A stretch of 37,249 bases of DNA from an uncultured Erysipelotrichaceae bacterium (lineage in GTDB: Bacteria; Bacillota_I; Bacilli_A; RF39; UBA660). The notes under the pieces are model-generated. The model did no database searches and was not told where the DNA came from. It saw only the letters and a program-made list of their open reading frames with translations. Where the stretch lies: assembly GCA_902773675.1 (NCBI GenBank), contig CACYFN010000004.1:1-37249 (forward strand), given 5' to 3'. The translations under genes were made by a program, and so were the position numbers. Shown in pieces: positions 1 to 12,946 of this stretch (the first letter of the stretch is position 1; the number at the start of each line of letters is the position of its first letter).

Positions 1-34
1 TAATTTTAAAGAAGAAAAAGATACTCATAAAAAA
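1..34. repeat. Terminal direct repeat, left copy (circular overlap)
   Basis: These 34 bases are identical to 37216-37249. Because the repeat lies inside one continuous reading frame, it is most simply an assembly overlap of a circular or circularly permuted genome, not a biological terminal repeat. The unit genome would be about 37,215 bp. Confidence 0.9.
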
Positions 35-205
35 TCAATAGGTTTTGTAATTGGTGACAAATTTAATTATTCACAAGAAATAACGAGTGAAAATAATGAT
101 GGTGCAAATATATATTCAATGGTGTCAGTATTATGGCAAGTAGTAAAAGAACAACAAGAAGAAATAAATGAATTAAAGGAGATGATTAAAAATGGCAAAT
201 ATTAA
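1..205 (+). CDS. Tail tip/fibre protein, C-terminal end (continues from 35312)
   Basis: The frame beginning at position 2 is open to a TAA at 203-205 and is the in-frame continuation of the gene that starts at 35312 and runs off the right end; the two parts overlap by the 34-base terminal repeat. It encodes the last residues of a peptidase-S74-like C-terminus: a short beta segment (IGFVIGDKF) and then a heptad-rich helix ending KEMIKNGKY. Such domains act as intramolecular chaperones for trimeric phage fibres, with the terminal helix forming a coiled coil. The stop overlaps the next gene by 14 bases, so the two are translationally coupled. Joined protein length is about 702 residues. Confidence 0.85.
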   Translation, partial: NFKEEKDTHKKSIGFVIGDKFNYSQEITSENNDGANIYSMVSVLWQVVKEQQEEINELKEMIKNGKY

Positions 206-3581: not shown

Positions 3582-3875
3582 ATGAAAAAAATTGAAGTTA
3601 GAAAATTGGGGTGGTTTGAAAAGTTTTGGTTGAGATTAAAATTTCCTAAAATACCGTCAAAAGATGGAAATATGATTACAATATCAAGAAGTGAATACGA
3701 ATTAATGAAAAAAATAATAGAAAAAGAAGAATGCTTTATAACACAAATACACAATCAAAATAAAAGAATAAAAGATTTAGAAGAAAAGATAAAAGAAAAA
3801 GAAAAGGCTAGAAGAAAATTAGCTGGAAAAATTGGTGGAATGAAAAAATATATTAATAGGTTAGAACATGAATGA
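3582..3875 (+). CDS. Basic coiled-coil protein, unknown
   Basis: 97 residues with ribosome site AGGAG just upstream, 1 nt after the previous stop. The N-terminal 40 residues are basic and aromatic (LGWFEKFWLRLKFPK), followed by a long helix (MKKIIEKEECFITQIHNQNKRIKDLEEKIKEKEKARRKL). The segment FISRSEYE-like (ITISRSEYELM) is common in small Firmicutes phage proteins. The TGA stop overlaps the next ATG. Function unknown. Confidence 0.65.
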   Translation: MKKIEVRKLGWFEKFWLRLKFPKIPSKDGNMITISRSEYELMKKIIEKEECFITQIHNQNKRIKDLEEKIKEKEKARRKLAGKIGGMKKYINRLEHE

Positions 3876-4062
3876 TTTTAAGAAAATGCAAATATTAGAG
3901 AACGATAGAGCAAAATGCAAAAGATATTGCAAATGTGGTCACCCCGTTGTTTTTCCAACAAATTCTAAAGCAATTAAAGTAATATGTACTTGATGTGGTA
4001 ATTATATTTATAAAAATGATTTAGAAGAATTTAAAGAAAAGATAAAAAAAGTATTAAAATAG
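3868..4062 (+). pseudogene. Zinc-ribbon protein interrupted by in-frame TGA
   Basis: From ATG 3868 the frame encodes a basic N-terminus and a CKCG pair (Cys21, Cys23), then ICT followed by TGA at 3991-3993 and immediately CGNYIYKND...FK to TAG at 4060-4062. Without the TGA the protein would be 64 residues with a four-Cys zinc ribbon (CxC...CxxC). Because the stop splits the second pair, the truncated 41-residue product lacks the fourth ligand. The downstream part keeps sensible protein sequence, so either the mutation is recent, the stop is read through (for example as Trp, giving CTWCG), or there is a sequencing error. It overlaps the previous gene by 8 bases. Confidence 0.7.
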
Positions 4063-4242: not shown

Positions 4243-5642
4243 TGACAAAGGAAGAATATTTAAAGGAATTAAATAAGGCGTTTGGTGATTTCAAATTTTA
4301 TGAAAACGGACACTATTACACATACAAAGATAAACCAATTTCAATTGGTGCTACTGGACTAATAGAACAATATACACAAGATTTTGATAGTCAAACAATA
4401 GCTGAAAGAGTGGCATTAAAACAAAATAAAACAGTTCAAGAAGTATTAGATGAATGGAAACAAAAAAATAAGTGGGCATGTGAAAAAGGACACCTAGGGC
4501 ATTGTTATGCACAAGAAACATGGGAACAATTATATCCTAGTCCAATATGGTTTGATGATGAAGAAAAGAAAATAGCAATTAATAGAATATGCAATGAAGG
4601 AGATAATTTTTATAATGATTATAAAGGCAGGTTAGAATTAGTTGCTAATGAATATGTAATTGGTAGTTATGAGTTTGATTTGGCTTCTGCTATTGACGCA
4701 TTGTTTATTAACAAACTAACAGGTGGACTTGTATTAGTAGATTATAAAACAAATAGTGATATACATAAAAATGAAAGATACGCCAAAAATATGAAAGTAC
4801 CTTTATCACATTTGAAAGACGATACATTGACACACTATGCAATTCAGTTATCTATCTACAAATACATAGTTGAAAAATACACCAATTTGAAATTTGAAGA
4901 AATGTTTATAGTATGGTTTAGTGAGCTAAATGAAAATTATGAAATTATAGAAGTGCCTTATTTATACAAGGAAGTAAAAAATATATTAGAATTAAGGAGG
5001 TGTGCCAAAATGGCAAAAATGTTATTAGTTATGGGAGAACCAGCAAGTGGTAAAACAGTATCACTTCGTAATATTCCTAAAAATGAGTTATATTATATAG
5101 ATTGTGATAAAAAAGGGTTAAATTATAAAGGTTGGAAAAATGATTTTAATGAAGAAAAAAAGAATTACTTTAGAAGTAATGACGGAGAAATGATTATTAA
5201 ATGTATGCAAGGTATTAGTGAAAAAAGAGAAGATATTAAATATATTGCAATAGATACTATTAATTCAATAATGATTGCTGATGAAATGAGAAGAAGTAAG
5301 GATAAGAATTTTGATAAATGGGTTGATTTAGCAAGTTGCATATTTAATTTAATAAACATAGTTCCTGATTTAAGAGATGATTTAACAGTTATCTTTATAG
5401 GACATACGCAAACTGATGATGAAGGATTTACAAGACTTCTTACAAATGGTAAAAAATTAAATAAGATAGGACTTGAAAAATATTTTGATACAGTATTAAT
5501 TGCTAAAAATAATGATGGTAAGTATGTTTTTGAAACCACTTCGCCTAATTCAACAGCAAGAGTTCCTATGGGTTCTTATGAAAATGAACAATATATTGAA
5601 AATGATTTATACGAAGTAATAAAAGAGTTGAAAGAATTTTAA
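4239..5642 (+). CDS. RecB-like nuclease fused in frame to Sak4-like AAA/RecA-fold ATPase
   Basis: 467 residues in one open frame. Residues 1-257 are a PD-(D/E)XK exonuclease of the RecB/Cas4-type family: GHLGHCY (about 86-90), ELVANE (133-138), AIDALF (151-156), LVDYKTN (166-172) and QLSIYKYI (203-210). Residues 258-467 are a Sak4-like RecA-fold ATPase with Walker A GEPASGKT (266-273) and Walker B IAIDT. In related phages these are usually two genes. Here a strong internal ribosome site (AAGGAGGTG, 4994-5002) precedes ATG 5010, so a free ATPase of 210 residues is probably also made. Together they should resect DNA and promote strand annealing. The ATG 4239 start overlaps the RHH gene. Confidence 0.85.
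   Translation: MMTKEEYLKELNKAFGDFKFYENGHYYTYKDKPISIGATGLIEQYTQDFDSQTIAERVALKQNKTVQEVLDEWKQKNKWACEKGHLGHCYAQETWEQLYPSPIWFDDEEKKIAINRICNEGDNFYNDYKGRLELVANEYVIGSYEFDLASAIDALFINKLTGGLVLVDYKTNSDIHKNERYAKNMKVPLSHLKDDTLTHYAIQLSIYKYIVEKYTNLKFEEMFIVWFSELNENYEIIEVPYLYKEVKNILELRRCAKMAKMLLVMGEPASGKTVSLRNIPKNELYYIDCDKKGLNYKGWKNDFNEEKKNYFRSNDGEMIIKCMQGISEKREDIKYIAIDTINSIMIADEMRRSKDKNFDKWVDLASCIFNLINIVPDLRDDLTVIFIGHTQTDDEGFTRLLTNGKKLNKIGLEKYFDTVLIAKNNDGKYVFETTSPNSTARVPMGSYENEQYIENDLYEVIKELKEF
4994..5012 (+). promoter_or_regulatory. Internal ribosome binding site inside the nuclease-ATPase frame
   Basis: AAGGAGGTG at 4994-5002 followed at normal spacing by ATG 5010, in frame with the long gene, exactly where the ATPase domain begins. 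This is what a former gene boundary would leave after loss of the upstream stop. Confidence 0.8.
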
Positions 5643-5656
5643 AAATATGGTACAAT
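5628..5656 (+). promoter_or_regulatory. Promoter of pseudoknot leader A
   Basis: TTGAAA at 5628-5633 (inside the end of the ATPase gene), 17-nt spacer, TACAAT at 5651-5656. The seventh base after the -10 box, G5663, is the first base of helix S1. Confidence 0.75.
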
Positions 5657-5662
5657 TATATT

Positions 5663-5740
5663 GTCGAGTAAGTAAAGAGGATTTATATAAGCATTGGTGC
5701 TTACTCGACATAAATACCAGTGCTTGTATAAGTCCTTTTT
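5663..5740 (+). ncRNA. Leader RNA A: interleaved two-helix (H-type) element
   Basis: S1: 5663-5672 (GTCGAGTAAG) with 5700-5709 (CTTACTCGAC), 10 perfect pairs. S2: 5674-5698 with 5716-5740, 25 continuous pairs, four of them G-U. Order is S1-5', S2-5', S1-3', 6-nt spacer, S2-3', then a T run, so the helices are interleaved. S2 plus the T run resembles a terminator; with almost no linker, full S1 and full S2 cannot easily coexist, suggesting a switch. CCTTTT at 5734-5739 can also pair with AAAAGG at 5757-5762, part of the ribosome site of the following endonuclease. The same design recurs at 9647 and 11036. Confidence 0.75.
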
Positions 5741-5773
5741 GCTTAAATAAATGGCTAAAAGGAGGTGCAAGTA

Positions 5774-6352
5774 TTGGAAAGTAAAAAATATATAGTTTAT
5801 ATGCACAAAAACAAAATAAACAATAAAGTTTATATTGGTATTACTTGCCAAAAAGCAAATTATAGATGGGGTGCTGGTAGTGGCTATAAACAACAACCAA
5901 AATTTTATCGTGCTATTTGTAAATATGGTTGGAATAATTTTGAACACATTATATTGTTTAATAATTTAACTTTTGAAGAAGCAAAGCAAAAAGAAATTGA
6001 AATGATAGACAAACATAATGCTTTTACTAAACAATATGGTTATAATGCAACAAAAGGTGGTGAAGGTTCAAACGGTATTCCTTGTAGTGAAGAAAAGAAA
6101 AATAAAATAAGTAAAGCAAATAAAGGACGTAAATTTAGCGAAAAAACCAAAAAAATAATGAGTGAATTAAAATTGGGAGTAAAACCTATAAATTGTAAAA
6201 AAGTTTTATGTGTAGAAACTGGTGTTATATATAAAAGTATGCATGACGCCGAAAAAGAAACTGGAGCAAAATATAAAAACATTTCAAAAGTTTGCAAAGG
6301 TGAATATGGAAGAAAAACTGCTGGTGGTTATCATTGGCAAATAATAAATTAG
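5774..6352 (+). CDS. GIY-YIG homing endonuclease with NUMOD motifs
   Basis: 192 residues from TTG 5774, which has AAAAGGAGG at ideal spacing; the GTG at 5765 lies inside that site and is rejected. Residues 5-24 carry IVYM...NKVYIGIT, the GIY-YIG core, then YRWGAGSGY (catalytic-type Arg) and the Glu/Asn-containing YGYNATKGGEGSNG. A NUMOD3-like segment follows (SEEKKNKISKANKGRKFSEKT) and then a NUMOD1-like HTH (VIYKSMHDAEKETGAKYKNISKVCKG). These free-standing phage endonucleases cut phage DNA lacking the gene and spread by repair. It lies between the Sak4-like and SSB-like genes, which are normally adjacent, consistent with insertion. Leader RNA A controls entry. Confidence 0.9.
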   Translation: MESKKYIVYMHKNKINNKVYIGITCQKANYRWGAGSGYKQQPKFYRAICKYGWNNFEHIILFNNLTFEEAKQKEIEMIDKHNAFTKQYGYNATKGGEGSNGIPCSEEKKNKISKANKGRKFSEKTKKIMSELKLGVKPINCKKVLCVETGVIYKSMHDAEKETGAKYKNISKVCKGEYGRKTAGGYHWQIIN

Positions 6353-7482: not shown

Positions 7483-8232
7483 GTGGCAAAATACAGGTCA
7501 GTTCAAACTTTGTTTTGGAGTGATACTAAAATAGTTGATGAATTTACTCCTGAAGATAAATACTTTTATCTTTATTTACTAACAAACGAAAAAAGCAATC
7601 AATTGGGTTGTTATGAGATTTCAATAAAGAAAATGTGTATAGATACTGGATATAATGAAGAAACTATTAAAAAAATGTTATATAGATTTGAAAATGTTTT
7701 AGAAGTGATTAATTTTGATTCTAAAACGAAAGAAATATTTATCAAGAATTGGCATAAATATAATTGGCTAGATAGCGATACTACAAGGAAATGTATCGAA
7801 AAAGAATTTAATTTAGTTAAATCTAGTAAATTAAAAGAATTAATTATTCCTTTTTATACCCCATATATGCCCCATGGTAGTAATAAAAAGAAAAAAGAAA
7901 AAGAAAAAGAAAAAAAAGAAGAAAAAGAATGTGTGTATAATAGTAAAGTTAGCGATAACAGTTCTAATAGCACGCACCCCACCCTCACTGATATTATTTC
8001 TTTTTGCTCTGATAATAACATAGAAAATTTTGATTGTGAGTATTTTTATGATTATTATGAAGCAAATGGTTGGGTTGATATGAATGGTAATAAAATAAAA
8101 AATTGGAAATCAAAAATTAAAACTTGGTATAAGAAAGATGTAAAAAATGAAGAATTAAAGCAAAATACAAGCAAAAATAAATATGAAGTTATTGATGGAA
8201 TAACTTACAAGAACGGGAAGCGATTGTTATGA
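7483..8232 (+). CDS. Replisome organiser (DnaD-like replication initiator)
   Basis: 249 residues from GTG 7483 (ribosome site GAGGAGG). The N-terminal ~110 residues (YRSVQTLFWSD..IVDEFTPEDKYFYLYLLTNEKSN..GCYEIS) are the winged-helix N-domain of phage replisome organisers. A Lys/Glu linker of low complexity (residues about 135-148) follows, and the C-terminus has FYDYYEANGWVDMNG..IKNWKSKIKTWYKKD, the DnaD-like tail motif. It should bind the phage origin, often within its own gene, and load the helicase encoded next, with which it overlaps by 4 bases. Confidence 0.85.
   Translation: MAKYRSVQTLFWSDTKIVDEFTPEDKYFYLYLLTNEKSNQLGCYEISIKKMCIDTGYNEETIKKMLYRFENVLEVINFDSKTKEIFIKNWHKYNWLDSDTTRKCIEKEFNLVKSSKLKELIIPFYTPYMPHGSNKKKKEKEKEKKEEKECVYNSKVSDNSSNSTHPTLTDIISFCSDNNIENFDCEYFYDYYEANGWVDMNGNKIKNWKSKIKTWYKKDVKNEELKQNTSKNKYEVIDGITYKNGKRLL
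7885..7929 (+). repeat. 45-nt homopurine tract in initiator gene
   Basis: An uninterrupted A/G run on the + strand that encodes the Lys/Glu linker of the replisome organiser. Phage origins often lie inside such genes, and a homopurine-homopyrimidine AT-rich run would melt easily, but no iterons are evident, so an origin role is only a possibility. Confidence 0.6.
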
Positions 8233-9611: not shown

Positions 9612-9640
9612 TTGATTATTTTATAAAATTATGTTATAAT
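9612..9640 (+). promoter_or_regulatory. Promoter of pseudoknot leader B
   Basis: TTGATT at 9612-9617, 17-nt spacer, TATAAT at 9635-9640. The seventh base after the -10 box, G9647, begins helix S1. Confidence 0.75.
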
Positions 9641-9646
9641 TAATAT

Positions 9647-9728
9647 GTCCAGATAGAATAAGAGCATTTGTTGATGGGTAGGACTATCTGGACAATAAAA
9701 CCTACTTATCAACAAGTGCTTTTGTTTT
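9647..9728 (+). ncRNA. Leader RNA B: interleaved two-helix element
   Basis: S1: 9647-9656 (GTCCAGATAG) with 9684-9693 (CTATCTGGAC), 10 perfect pairs. S2: 9660-9682 with 9701-9723, 23 continuous pairs including four G-U, then TTTTGTTTT. Same order and dimensions as leader A with different sequence. CCTACTT (9701-9707), the start of S2-3', is also exactly complementary to AAGTAGG (9741-9747), the ribosome site of the next gene, giving a competing fold that would hide it. Confidence 0.8.
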
Positions 9729-9754
9729 GTCTACGATAGAAAGTAGGTAATTTT

Positions 9755-10381
9755 ATGAAAGAAAAAAAGTATTGCAAAAATTGTGGAAAGGAAATAATTA
9801 ACTATTGCAAAGTTTATTGTAGTCAAAAGTGTTATTTTGATTATAAACATAAAAATCAATATTCATATAATAATTTGTATAGAAGATATATGGATATGAA
9901 AGGAAGATGTTACAGAAAAAGTAATTGTAACTATAAACATTATGGTGCTAGGGGTATCAAAGTGTGTGATGAGTGGTTAGGCAAAGATGGCTATAAAAAT
10001 TTTGAAAAGTGGTCTTTAGAAAATGGCTATAAAAAGGAATTGTCATTAGATAAAATTGATAATAATGGTAATTATAGTCCAGATAATTGTAGATGGACTA
10101 CAAAAAGAATACAAAATATAAATAAAAGACCTGGCACACCAAATACAAGTGGTTTTGTAGGTGTTAGAGTACATAATTGTAAAAATAGATATTATGGAAG
10201 TGTGAAAATAAATGATAAAGCACATTATACTGGAATGTCTGATGATATAATTATTGCTGCAATTATGAGAAATAATTACATAATAGATAATCATTTAGAT
10301 AATGAACTAAACGATTTATCAAAATATGCTGATAAATATGATATGGAGGTTAGATATGTCCCAAAAAGAAAAAATATATGA
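9755..10381 (+). CDS. HNH homing endonuclease with zinc finger and AP2 domain
   Basis: 208 residues. Order: a Cys-rich N-terminus (CKNCGKE...VYCSQKCYFD, residues 7-28), an HNH-type nuclease (HYGARGIKVCDEWL..., SLDKIDNNGNYSPDNCRWTT, residues 62-117), then an AP2-like DNA-binding domain (TSGFVGVRVHNCKNRYYGSVKIN..., residues 131-165). This is the common layout of free-standing phage homing endonucleases. The ribosome site AAGTAGGT is weak and can be masked by leader RNA B. It lies between helicase and ERCC4-type nuclease genes, an ordinary insertion position. No intron is apparent. Confidence 0.9.
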   Translation: MKEKKYCKNCGKEIINYCKVYCSQKCYFDYKHKNQYSYNNLYRRYMDMKGRCYRKSNCNYKHYGARGIKVCDEWLGKDGYKNFEKWSLENGYKKELSLDKIDNNGNYSPDNCRWTTKRIQNINKRPGTPNTSGFVGVRVHNCKNRYYGSVKINDKAHYTGMSDDIIIAAIMRNNYIIDNHLDNELNDLSKYADKYDMEVRYVPKRKNI

Positions 10382-11000: not shown

Positions 11001-11029
11001 TTGAAATATCCTAAAAAATATGTTATAAT
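11001..11029 (+). promoter_or_regulatory. Promoter of pseudoknot leader C
   Basis: TTGAAA at 11001-11006, 17-nt spacer, TATAAT at 11024-11029. The seventh base after the -10 box, G11036, begins helix S1. Confidence 0.78.
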
Positions 11030-11035
11030 TTATTT

Positions 11036-11122
11036 GTTGAGTAGCAAAGGAGAATTTATATGAGTATATTGGTTGCTACTCAACATATAACCAATATATT
11101 CATATAAGTTCTCTTTTGTTTT
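11036..11122 (+). ncRNA. Leader RNA C: interleaved two-helix element
   Basis: S1: 11036-11045 (GTTGAGTAGC) with 11075-11084 (GCTACTCAAC). S2: 11046-11074 with 11089-11117, 29 continuous pairs with three G-U, followed by GTTTT. The strands abut with no linker except 4 nt before S2-3', making it the tightest of the three copies. CTTTTG (11113-11118) can instead pair with CAAAAG (11127-11132), and CTCC (11124-11127) with GGAG (11132-11135), both masking the ribosome site of the next gene. Confidence 0.8.
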
Positions 11123-11141: not shown

Positions 11142-11222
11142 ATGGAAAAAGAAATTATTGAATATATAAAACGATTGGAAAAAAGAATAGAAATATTGGA
11201 GTATAAATTAGAAAAGGAGTGA
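11142..11222 (+). CDS. 26-residue coiled-coil peptide
   Basis: A short frame with a perfect AAAGGAGG ribosome site, directly behind leader RNA C. The whole peptide is one heptad helix (KEIIEYIKRLEKRIEILEYKL). Its stop is 6 nt before the next ATG. It may be a true small protein or a leader ORF for the operon below. Confidence 0.55.
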   Translation: MEKEIIEYIKRLEKRIEILEYKLEKE

Positions 11223-12625: not shown

Positions 12626-12862
12626 ATGATTATAGAAAACATTACTAACAAAGGGATTAGTTTAGATAGAAATGGTCAATCAATGCAAAGAGAAGTATAT
12701 GAAAAAGAAATAGTTAAATTACAATCCAACTGGAATAGTTTAAGAGAGTGGTTAGAAAAACAAATTAGCAATGATTTAGATGGGATATTTAGTTATAGTG
12801 GAAGACAATGTAAAGAAACATTAGATAAAATGAACGAATTAGAAAATTTGCAAAATAAATAA
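12626..12862 (+). CDS. Small acidic helical protein, unknown
   Basis: 78 residues started from the third, slightly altered start-module repeat. N-terminus has short beta-like MIIENITNKGISLDRNG, then helices (QREVYEKEIVKLQSNWNSLREWLEKQI and CKETLDKMNELENLQ). Last gene of the operon behind leader RNA C; a promoter begins within its final codons. Function unknown. Confidence 0.6.
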   Translation: MIIENITNKGISLDRNGQSMQREVYEKEIVKLQSNWNSLREWLEKQISNDLDGIFSYSGRQCKETLDKMNELENLQNK

Positions 12863-12876
12863 TTCTATGTTATAAT
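12848..12876 (+). promoter_or_regulatory. Promoter, first copy of a duplicated pair
   Basis: TTGCAA at 12848-12853, 17-nt spacer, TATAAT at 12871-12876. Nearly the same 30-bp block recurs exactly 101 bp downstream (12949-12977). Confidence 0.7.
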
Positions 12877-12882
12877 TATATC

Positions 12883-12946
12883 GTGCAATCGCACTATACC
12901 CCTTTTTATTCTTTTTGAATGGGAAATAAGCCTCCTGTTCTTTTTT
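12883..12946 (+). ncRNA. Candidate ~64-nt small RNA with anti-Shine-Dalgarno segment
   Basis: The predicted start G12883 opens a GTGC/GCAC hairpin (loop AATC). A second structure can form from ACCCC...ATTC/GAAT...GGG, and the segment ends GCCTCCTGTTC followed by six T. The CCTCCT is complementary to strong ribosome sites. No frame of useful length is present. It is bracketed by two near-identical promoters. Whether the T run terminates is uncertain because the hairpin just before it is weak. Confidence 0.4.

Follow-up and report, generated by a model that had tools for sequence, protein, structure and literature searches.

What is the structured RNA that seems to begin at the predicted transcription start of a GIY-YIG homing endonuclease gene, and again at two other places, in a 37,249-nucleotide stretch of DNA (here called the window), and what might it do for the genes behind it? 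Homing endonucleases cut DNA, and their expression must suffice for spread yet not harm the phage. How free-standing homing endonucleases are restrained has, to our knowledge, been established in just a few T4-type cases. We describe here a real, conserved and endonuclease-linked leader of homing endonuclease cassettes in rumen phages, which is apparently undescribed. The same RNA architecture recurs with several endonuclease families and in unrelated phages, and copies within one genome differ in sequence. Our preferred reading, to which we give a probability of roughly 55%, is that this is the leader of a mobile cassette consisting of promoter, leader, ribosome site and endonuclease gene, and that it acts as a co-transcriptional attenuator. 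If this is true, two interleaved helices would make up a compact switch that needs neither ligand nor protein.

Interleaved helices at predicted transcription starts

The window was scanned for two helices, S1 and S2, in the interleaved order S1 5′, S2 5′, S1 3′, S2 3′, with 100 dinucleotide shuffles of the window as the control. Three pairs, copies A, B and C, scored 37.8, 36.1 and 41.5, compared with a best score of 20.3 among the shuffles. Their outer ends lie at about the predicted first transcribed nucleotide (5662, 9646 and 11035), as a preliminary description of this DNA had proposed. The promoter linkage proposed there is also supported: a sigma-A promoter with 17-nucleotide spacing and an extended −10 element lies directly 5′ of each copy. 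Each −10 element ends five nucleotides before a TGT, so transcription is predicted to start at the G of this TGT, at the outer end of S1.

All elements are on the plus strand. The promoter of copy A (5628-5656) has the −35 box TTGAAA, 17 nucleotides of spacing and the extended −10 box TG-N-TACAAT, and is kept in A-type relatives. S1 starts from about the predicted +1 and pairs 5662-5674 with 5698-5710 (13 bp, one G-U). The 5′ arm of S2 (5669-5699) lies within the S1 loop and overlaps S1; it forms 31 contiguous pairs, six of them G-U, with a 3′ arm (5715-5745) that contains a U run at 5736-5740 and is predicted to pair also with the ribosome site at 5760-5776. Copy B follows a TTGATT-17-TATAAT promoter with an extended −10 (9612-9640). 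Its S1 hairpin spans 9646-9694 (arms 9646-9656/9684-9694, 11 bp) and its S2 hairpin 9651-9732 (arms 9651-9682/9701-9732, 32 pairs, seven G-U, U-rich tail). In copy C the promoter is TTGAAA-17-TATAAT, again with an extended −10 (11001-11029), the S1 hairpin spans 11035-11085 (arms 11035-11047/11073-11085, 13 bp) and the S2 hairpin 11043-11120 (arms 11043-11075/11088-11120, 33 pairs, five G-U, U-rich tail).

These boundaries amend the preliminary description in part. Its interleaving stands, but the S2 lengths that it gave (25 bp in copy A, 23-29 bp overall) are too short, since S2 has 31-33 pairs and overlaps S1. Its claim that complete S1 and complete S2 are mutually incompatible now follows without a geometric argument, because the arms share a few nucleotides. 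The statement that the copies share little sequence does not hold for A and C, which have the S2 core TTTATATRAG in common and are for this reason regarded as diverged relatives.

Two other features of the window were recorded. At 12848-12945, behind a TTGCAA-17-TATAAT promoter with an extended −10, there is a small hairpin and then a stem resembling a terminator (12917-12940), with no evident open reading frame; this is possibly a short RNA. At 3868-4062, a 64-codon zinc-finger-like frame carries one in-frame TGA in the context CT*CG (W if read through); a relative in L002 has CHYCG at this site, and the frame may represent a pseudogene, read-through or recoding.

Relatives and covariation

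Complete copies of the window type, with S1 of about 11-13 bp and S2 of about 24-34 bp, number 26 on 21 contigs or genomes and come in many sequence versions. Relatives of the neighbouring DnaB gene yielded copies in L003 (two), L013 and L024, with none in shuffled controls. A promoter pattern added copies in L035, L043 (two, one of them via a covariance model), L052, L055, L063 and L081, as well as one in L053 that is cut off and so incomplete; a strict form of the pattern, TATGTTATAATTWATWTGTYSAG, gave zero matches, and the relaxed form succeeded. Genome searches returned L176 and, from the host family, two further copies (L084/L168 and L175), while a search of 395 genomes of the class gave no copy except the window's own. 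Contigs from genomes and viruses, scanned with patterns, contributed L169 (two copies, in a Clostridia MAG named Lapin-008) and L174, and further copies in L259, L262, L271, L273, L289, L292 and L311. BLAST of the copy A region against phage records matched only endonuclease coding sequence. A covariance model built from five B-like copies alone retrieves A- and C-like copies with E of about 1e-6 or better, and the two groups therefore support each other.

Conservation of pairing is evident in both helices. Across 20 copies (19 of the window type and L176), the called stretches of S2 measure 24-34 bp, with three to seven G-U pairs each and zero A-C or other mismatches, a zero that is partly by construction because the score that chooses the stretch penalises mismatches. 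The contiguous length of 24-34 bp has no such origin and would not be expected. Within the called stretches, the earlier observation that all S2 imperfections are G-U pairs thus extends to the 20 copies, with the same proviso on construction. In the alignment of the B group, 94.6% of cells are paired and 15 pairs are changed on both sides, a result as high as which was reached in none of 500 shuffles; pairing drops to less than 50% when the alignment is slid by one column.

Covariation is present in S1 as well as in S2, and for S1 it is understated in this alignment, since the S1 of the D and L types is one column off. At S1 position 5, which is free in both halves of the search pattern, all rows in correct register have a pair, which is TA, GC, CG or AT; L055 and the L043 H copy are out of register by one or two bases and were counted as unpaired. 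The covariance model scores 115 bits on the plus strand and 39 bits on the minus strand. The preliminary description would have been refuted by a lack of homologous copies with covarying helices in related phages. Such copies were found, and its claim of RNA-level selection is supported by covariation in both helices and by the G-U-only imperfections of S2.

Association with homing endonuclease cassettes

Homing endonuclease genes (GIY-YIG, NUMOD4-HNH or other HNH) lie directly 3′ of 22 of the 26 copies: 12 are NUMOD4-HNH, eight are GIY-YIG types (phrog_314), and the others are the HNH gene of the window (phrog_374) and that of L174. Three more copies (in L024, at 7889-8100, L081 and L259) are intact leaders before an endonuclease remnant that is internally deleted or truncated. 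The start codon falls at a nearly constant distance, +101 to +120. In the window, copy A precedes a GIY-YIG homing endonuclease gene with a TTG start (5774-6352, plus strand) and copy B an HNH endonuclease gene (9755-10381, plus strand; phrog_374, 1.7e-37). Copy C is the remaining case and precedes a 26-codon frame (11142-11222, plus strand), which may have replaced an endonuclease gene or be what is left of one; in L055, a NUMOD4-HNH gene stands behind a C-type copy.

Promoter, RNA and endonuclease gene together form a cassette that is inserted into or beside phage genes. In L010, L014, L018 and L020, which lack the cassette, a REYYEL(D/N)K-like stretch closes the AAA_24 protein. The window has this stretch behind the stop codon of the GIY-YIG gene, and its AAA_24 ends in a new tail, which places the insertion within the 3′ end of AAA_24, at about 5617-6349 on the plus strand. 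The same 3′ end is occupied in L003, L024, L052 and L168, so that occupied and unoccupied sites coexist among relatives, as is typical of a mobile endonuclease cassette. An N-terminal fragment of ERCC4 lies 5′ of the cassette in L003 and L053, and a complete ERCC4 restarts 3′ of it in L003; L043 has the same arrangement for a gene that reads as MBL-like from its sequence. At the junction between DnaB and ERCC4, B-type leaders precede an HNH gene in the window and a GIY-YIG gene in L003, which indicates that leader and endonuclease are exchangeable.

Because the C-terminal part of AAA_24 picks up again behind the cassette, a group I intron was considered. This candidate was rejected: the ERCC4 gene of L003 restarts complete rather than split, and Rfam models gave no intron match. 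We also rejected the notion that the leader is general to all GIY-YIG relatives, as only two of the best 80 viral relatives carry it and both were known copies.

Predicted folding and proposed mechanism

The predicted stability of S2 is −29 to −41 kcal/mol, exceeding that of S1 by roughly 10-26 kcal/mol, and its 3′ end is U-rich in all copies, with a U tract behind S2 in nearly all. S2 thus has the stable hairpin and U-rich tract of an intrinsic terminator, with a loop longer than usual. A simple terminator scan did not flag it because the loop limit of the scan is 8 nucleotides. For 15 copies we computed folds of the growing transcript. S1 is wholly in the predicted fold on its completion (47-54 nucleotides) and persists until about 67-73 nucleotides are exposed (84 in one copy, of the E type), at which point the U tract would be close to the polymerase if about 12 nucleotides of RNA are covered.

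In most of these 15 copies, locking S1 is predicted to reduce the accessibility of the ribosome site. That the 3′ strand of S2 complements the ribosome site, as proposed earlier, holds relative to shuffles for 14 of 25 copies and fails to rise above chance in the other 11. The pairing is strongest in type A (z to −5), where the 5′ strand of S2 is similar to the ribosome site and to the start region. For the full leader of copy A, the best predicted fold combines S1 with pairing between the S2 3′ strand and the ribosome site, which counts against the attenuator reading.

From these features we infer the following sequence of events. S1 would fold once about 50 nucleotides have been made, and its loop would then enclose the S2 5′ strand. 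The far more stable S2, which with its U tract would resemble an intrinsic terminator, could then form only by displacing S1. Formation of S2 before RNA polymerase leaves the U tract would lead to termination, and formation afterwards would permit read-through. Under this proposal the endonuclease would be made at a low level and late, because read-through would hang on the race between S1 and S2. While S1 holds, the 3′ strand of S2 would cover the ribosome site in many copies, acting as a second brake, and formation of S2 after read-through would free the site and so delay translation. A switch function is probable on these grounds, although displacement of the S1 strand may be fast and leave little delay in S2. 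Neither an aptamer nor a leader peptide was found in the leader; the C and E types do contain a short frame from start to stop, preceded by what looks like a ribosome site, but it was rejected as a leader peptide because it is not conserved in the B, D and F types.

Leaders of unrelated sequence

We used the pattern TATAAT-5-TGTCNAG-(28..58)-CTNGACA on viral contigs and on the other loci of this analysis, requiring S1 of at least 8 bp and comparing each S2 with 200 shuffles. Among 43 distinct cases with such an S1, 26 have an interleaved S2 that exceeds all 200 shuffles. The values for L244 (p = 0.005) and for L316 and L261 (p = 0.01) are close behind, and the remaining cases are at chance. 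The same plan occurs with unrelated sequence in ten loci (L176, L244, L263, L268, L276, L277, L280, L284, L288 and L291), and also in L316, where it is weaker, and in L221, where an S2 of 8 bp was recognised by eye. A joint query of most of these leaders gave no matches.

The genes behind them are diverse. They encode HNH endonucleases (L221, L244 and L276), a T5orf172/MUG113 nuclease (L263), a TnpB-like protein (L280, 1742-2990, with a perfect S2 of 15 bp), a C5 DNA methylase (L277), LPD29 (L268), DnaB_2 (L316), DUF7307 (L288) and a protein of no known family (L284). S2 is mostly 9-19 bp, the loops are about 9-27 and 10-17 nucleotides, and the spacer between S1 and the S2 3′ strand is A-rich (AUAAA). 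With the shorter S2 and longer loops, a simultaneous pseudoknot is possible in these copies, which may be either homologous to the window type or convergent with it. A bolder reading, which we hold tentatively and at somewhat less than even odds, is that all belong to an undescribed general class of 5′-terminal interleaved leaders with TGTC-AG at +1. Such leaders would serve selfish or accessory genes of many unrelated phages (homing endonucleases, TnpB, T5orf172 nuclease and DNA methylase) as self-timed topological antiterminators, in which the first hairpin holds a terminator strand in its loop.

Related patterns were also noted. In L031, L049, L177 and L237, a promoter and a 5′-terminal TGTCAAG hairpin without S2 are followed directly by the ribosome site, and the gene behind is similar among L031, L049 and L177. 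TGTCAAG...CTTGACA repeats in viral contigs L183, L197, L202 and L217, whose second arm resembles the −35 box of the next promoter, were rejected as examples of this leader and are read as tandem promoters.

Alternative explanations

The dimensions of the unrelated-sequence copies, in both S2 and loops, and their A-rich spacer would suit a different arrangement, in which a single stable H-type pseudoknot, built from S1 and a portion of S2 at the 5′ end, is bound by a protein or contacts RNA polymerase to carry it past terminators, like HK022 putRNA. A nascent RNA is able to act on polymerase in this way (PMC9378689). However, putRNA consists of separate rather than interleaved stem-loops, and the S2 of the window type, at 24-34 bp with almost no linker and an overlap with S1, cannot be complete together with S1; we consider the pseudoknot unlikely. 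The U tract behind S2 in nearly all copies, together with the hairpins of S1 alone in other phages, could instead reflect ordinary insulation, with S2 a mere terminator or RNase III site and S1 a hairpin that stabilises the 5′ end. Tandem hairpins would be a simpler way to this end, yet interleaving is kept in every copy despite sequence drift, and a fixed terminator before a gene with its own promoter is useful only with read-through; we regard simple insulation as less likely still.

Promoter, compact structure and U tract also amount to a complete small-RNA gene, and leaders remain intact before the deleted endonucleases of L024, L081 and L259. The terminated leader of about 85 nucleotides might accordingly persist as a small RNA with targets in trans, while low read-through supplies the endonuclease. 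This is improbable, as every copy has its own sequence, and so no shared target is indicated, and the deletions look recent enough that the leaders may simply not have decayed yet. Finally, the repeats might act as DNA, whether as operator, cruciform or endonuclease binding site: I-TevI represses its own gene from an operator (PMC2988022), and the arms of S1, whose TGTC ends are conserved, make a near-perfect inverted repeat. We regard this as very improbable, because G-U pairs in the transcribed strand would be A-C on the other strand, the covariance model scores far higher on the plus strand than on the minus strand, arm spacing is variable and one leader type serves different endonucleases.

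Comparison with known systems

Searches with Rfam covariance models returned no family at or above its gathering threshold, in line with the earlier statement that no named family has this geometry. Matches below threshold were only microRNA-precursor look-alikes (mir-12, 37.4 bits with 55 needed), as for any long hairpin. The literature search gave no description of a matching leader; its coverage is thin for subscription papers, and novelty is therefore provisional.

The attenuator reading can be set beside several well-studied RNAs. In T4-type endonuclease genes (I-TevI, I-TevII, I-TevIII, segB and Aeh1 mobE) a hairpin over the ribosome site restrains the gene, and mobE and segF have weak terminators (PMC2988022, PMC3014915). 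As in the present leader, a structured RNA lies just 5′ of a phage endonuclease gene, in several cases with its own promoter. However, each is a single hairpin at the ribosome site, mostly in transcripts from upstream promoters, with no interleaved S1 and S2 and no motif common to GIY-YIG and HNH genes. HK022 putRNA, EAR and conAn resemble the leader in that structured nascent RNA near a phage or plasmid promoter alters termination (PMC9378689, PMC8955417). In contrast, putRNA comprises two successive stem-loops of about 70 nucleotides that act on polymerase and distant terminators (PMC9378689), whereas here the helices are interleaved and the terminator-like hairpin belongs to the element itself. 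The 5′ pseudoknot of T4 gene 32 is likewise a phage mRNA leader with interleaved helices 5′ of the ribosome site; it has short stems, is bound by its own gene product and includes no terminator (PMC3014915). Attenuators and riboswitch expression platforms share the use of mutually exclusive structures, one of them a hairpin like an intrinsic terminator. Their antiterminator usually pairs with a terminator strand, whereas S1 mainly encloses that strand in its loop. By analogy with these systems, the leader probably works both like an attenuator and like the brakes of T4 endonuclease genes.
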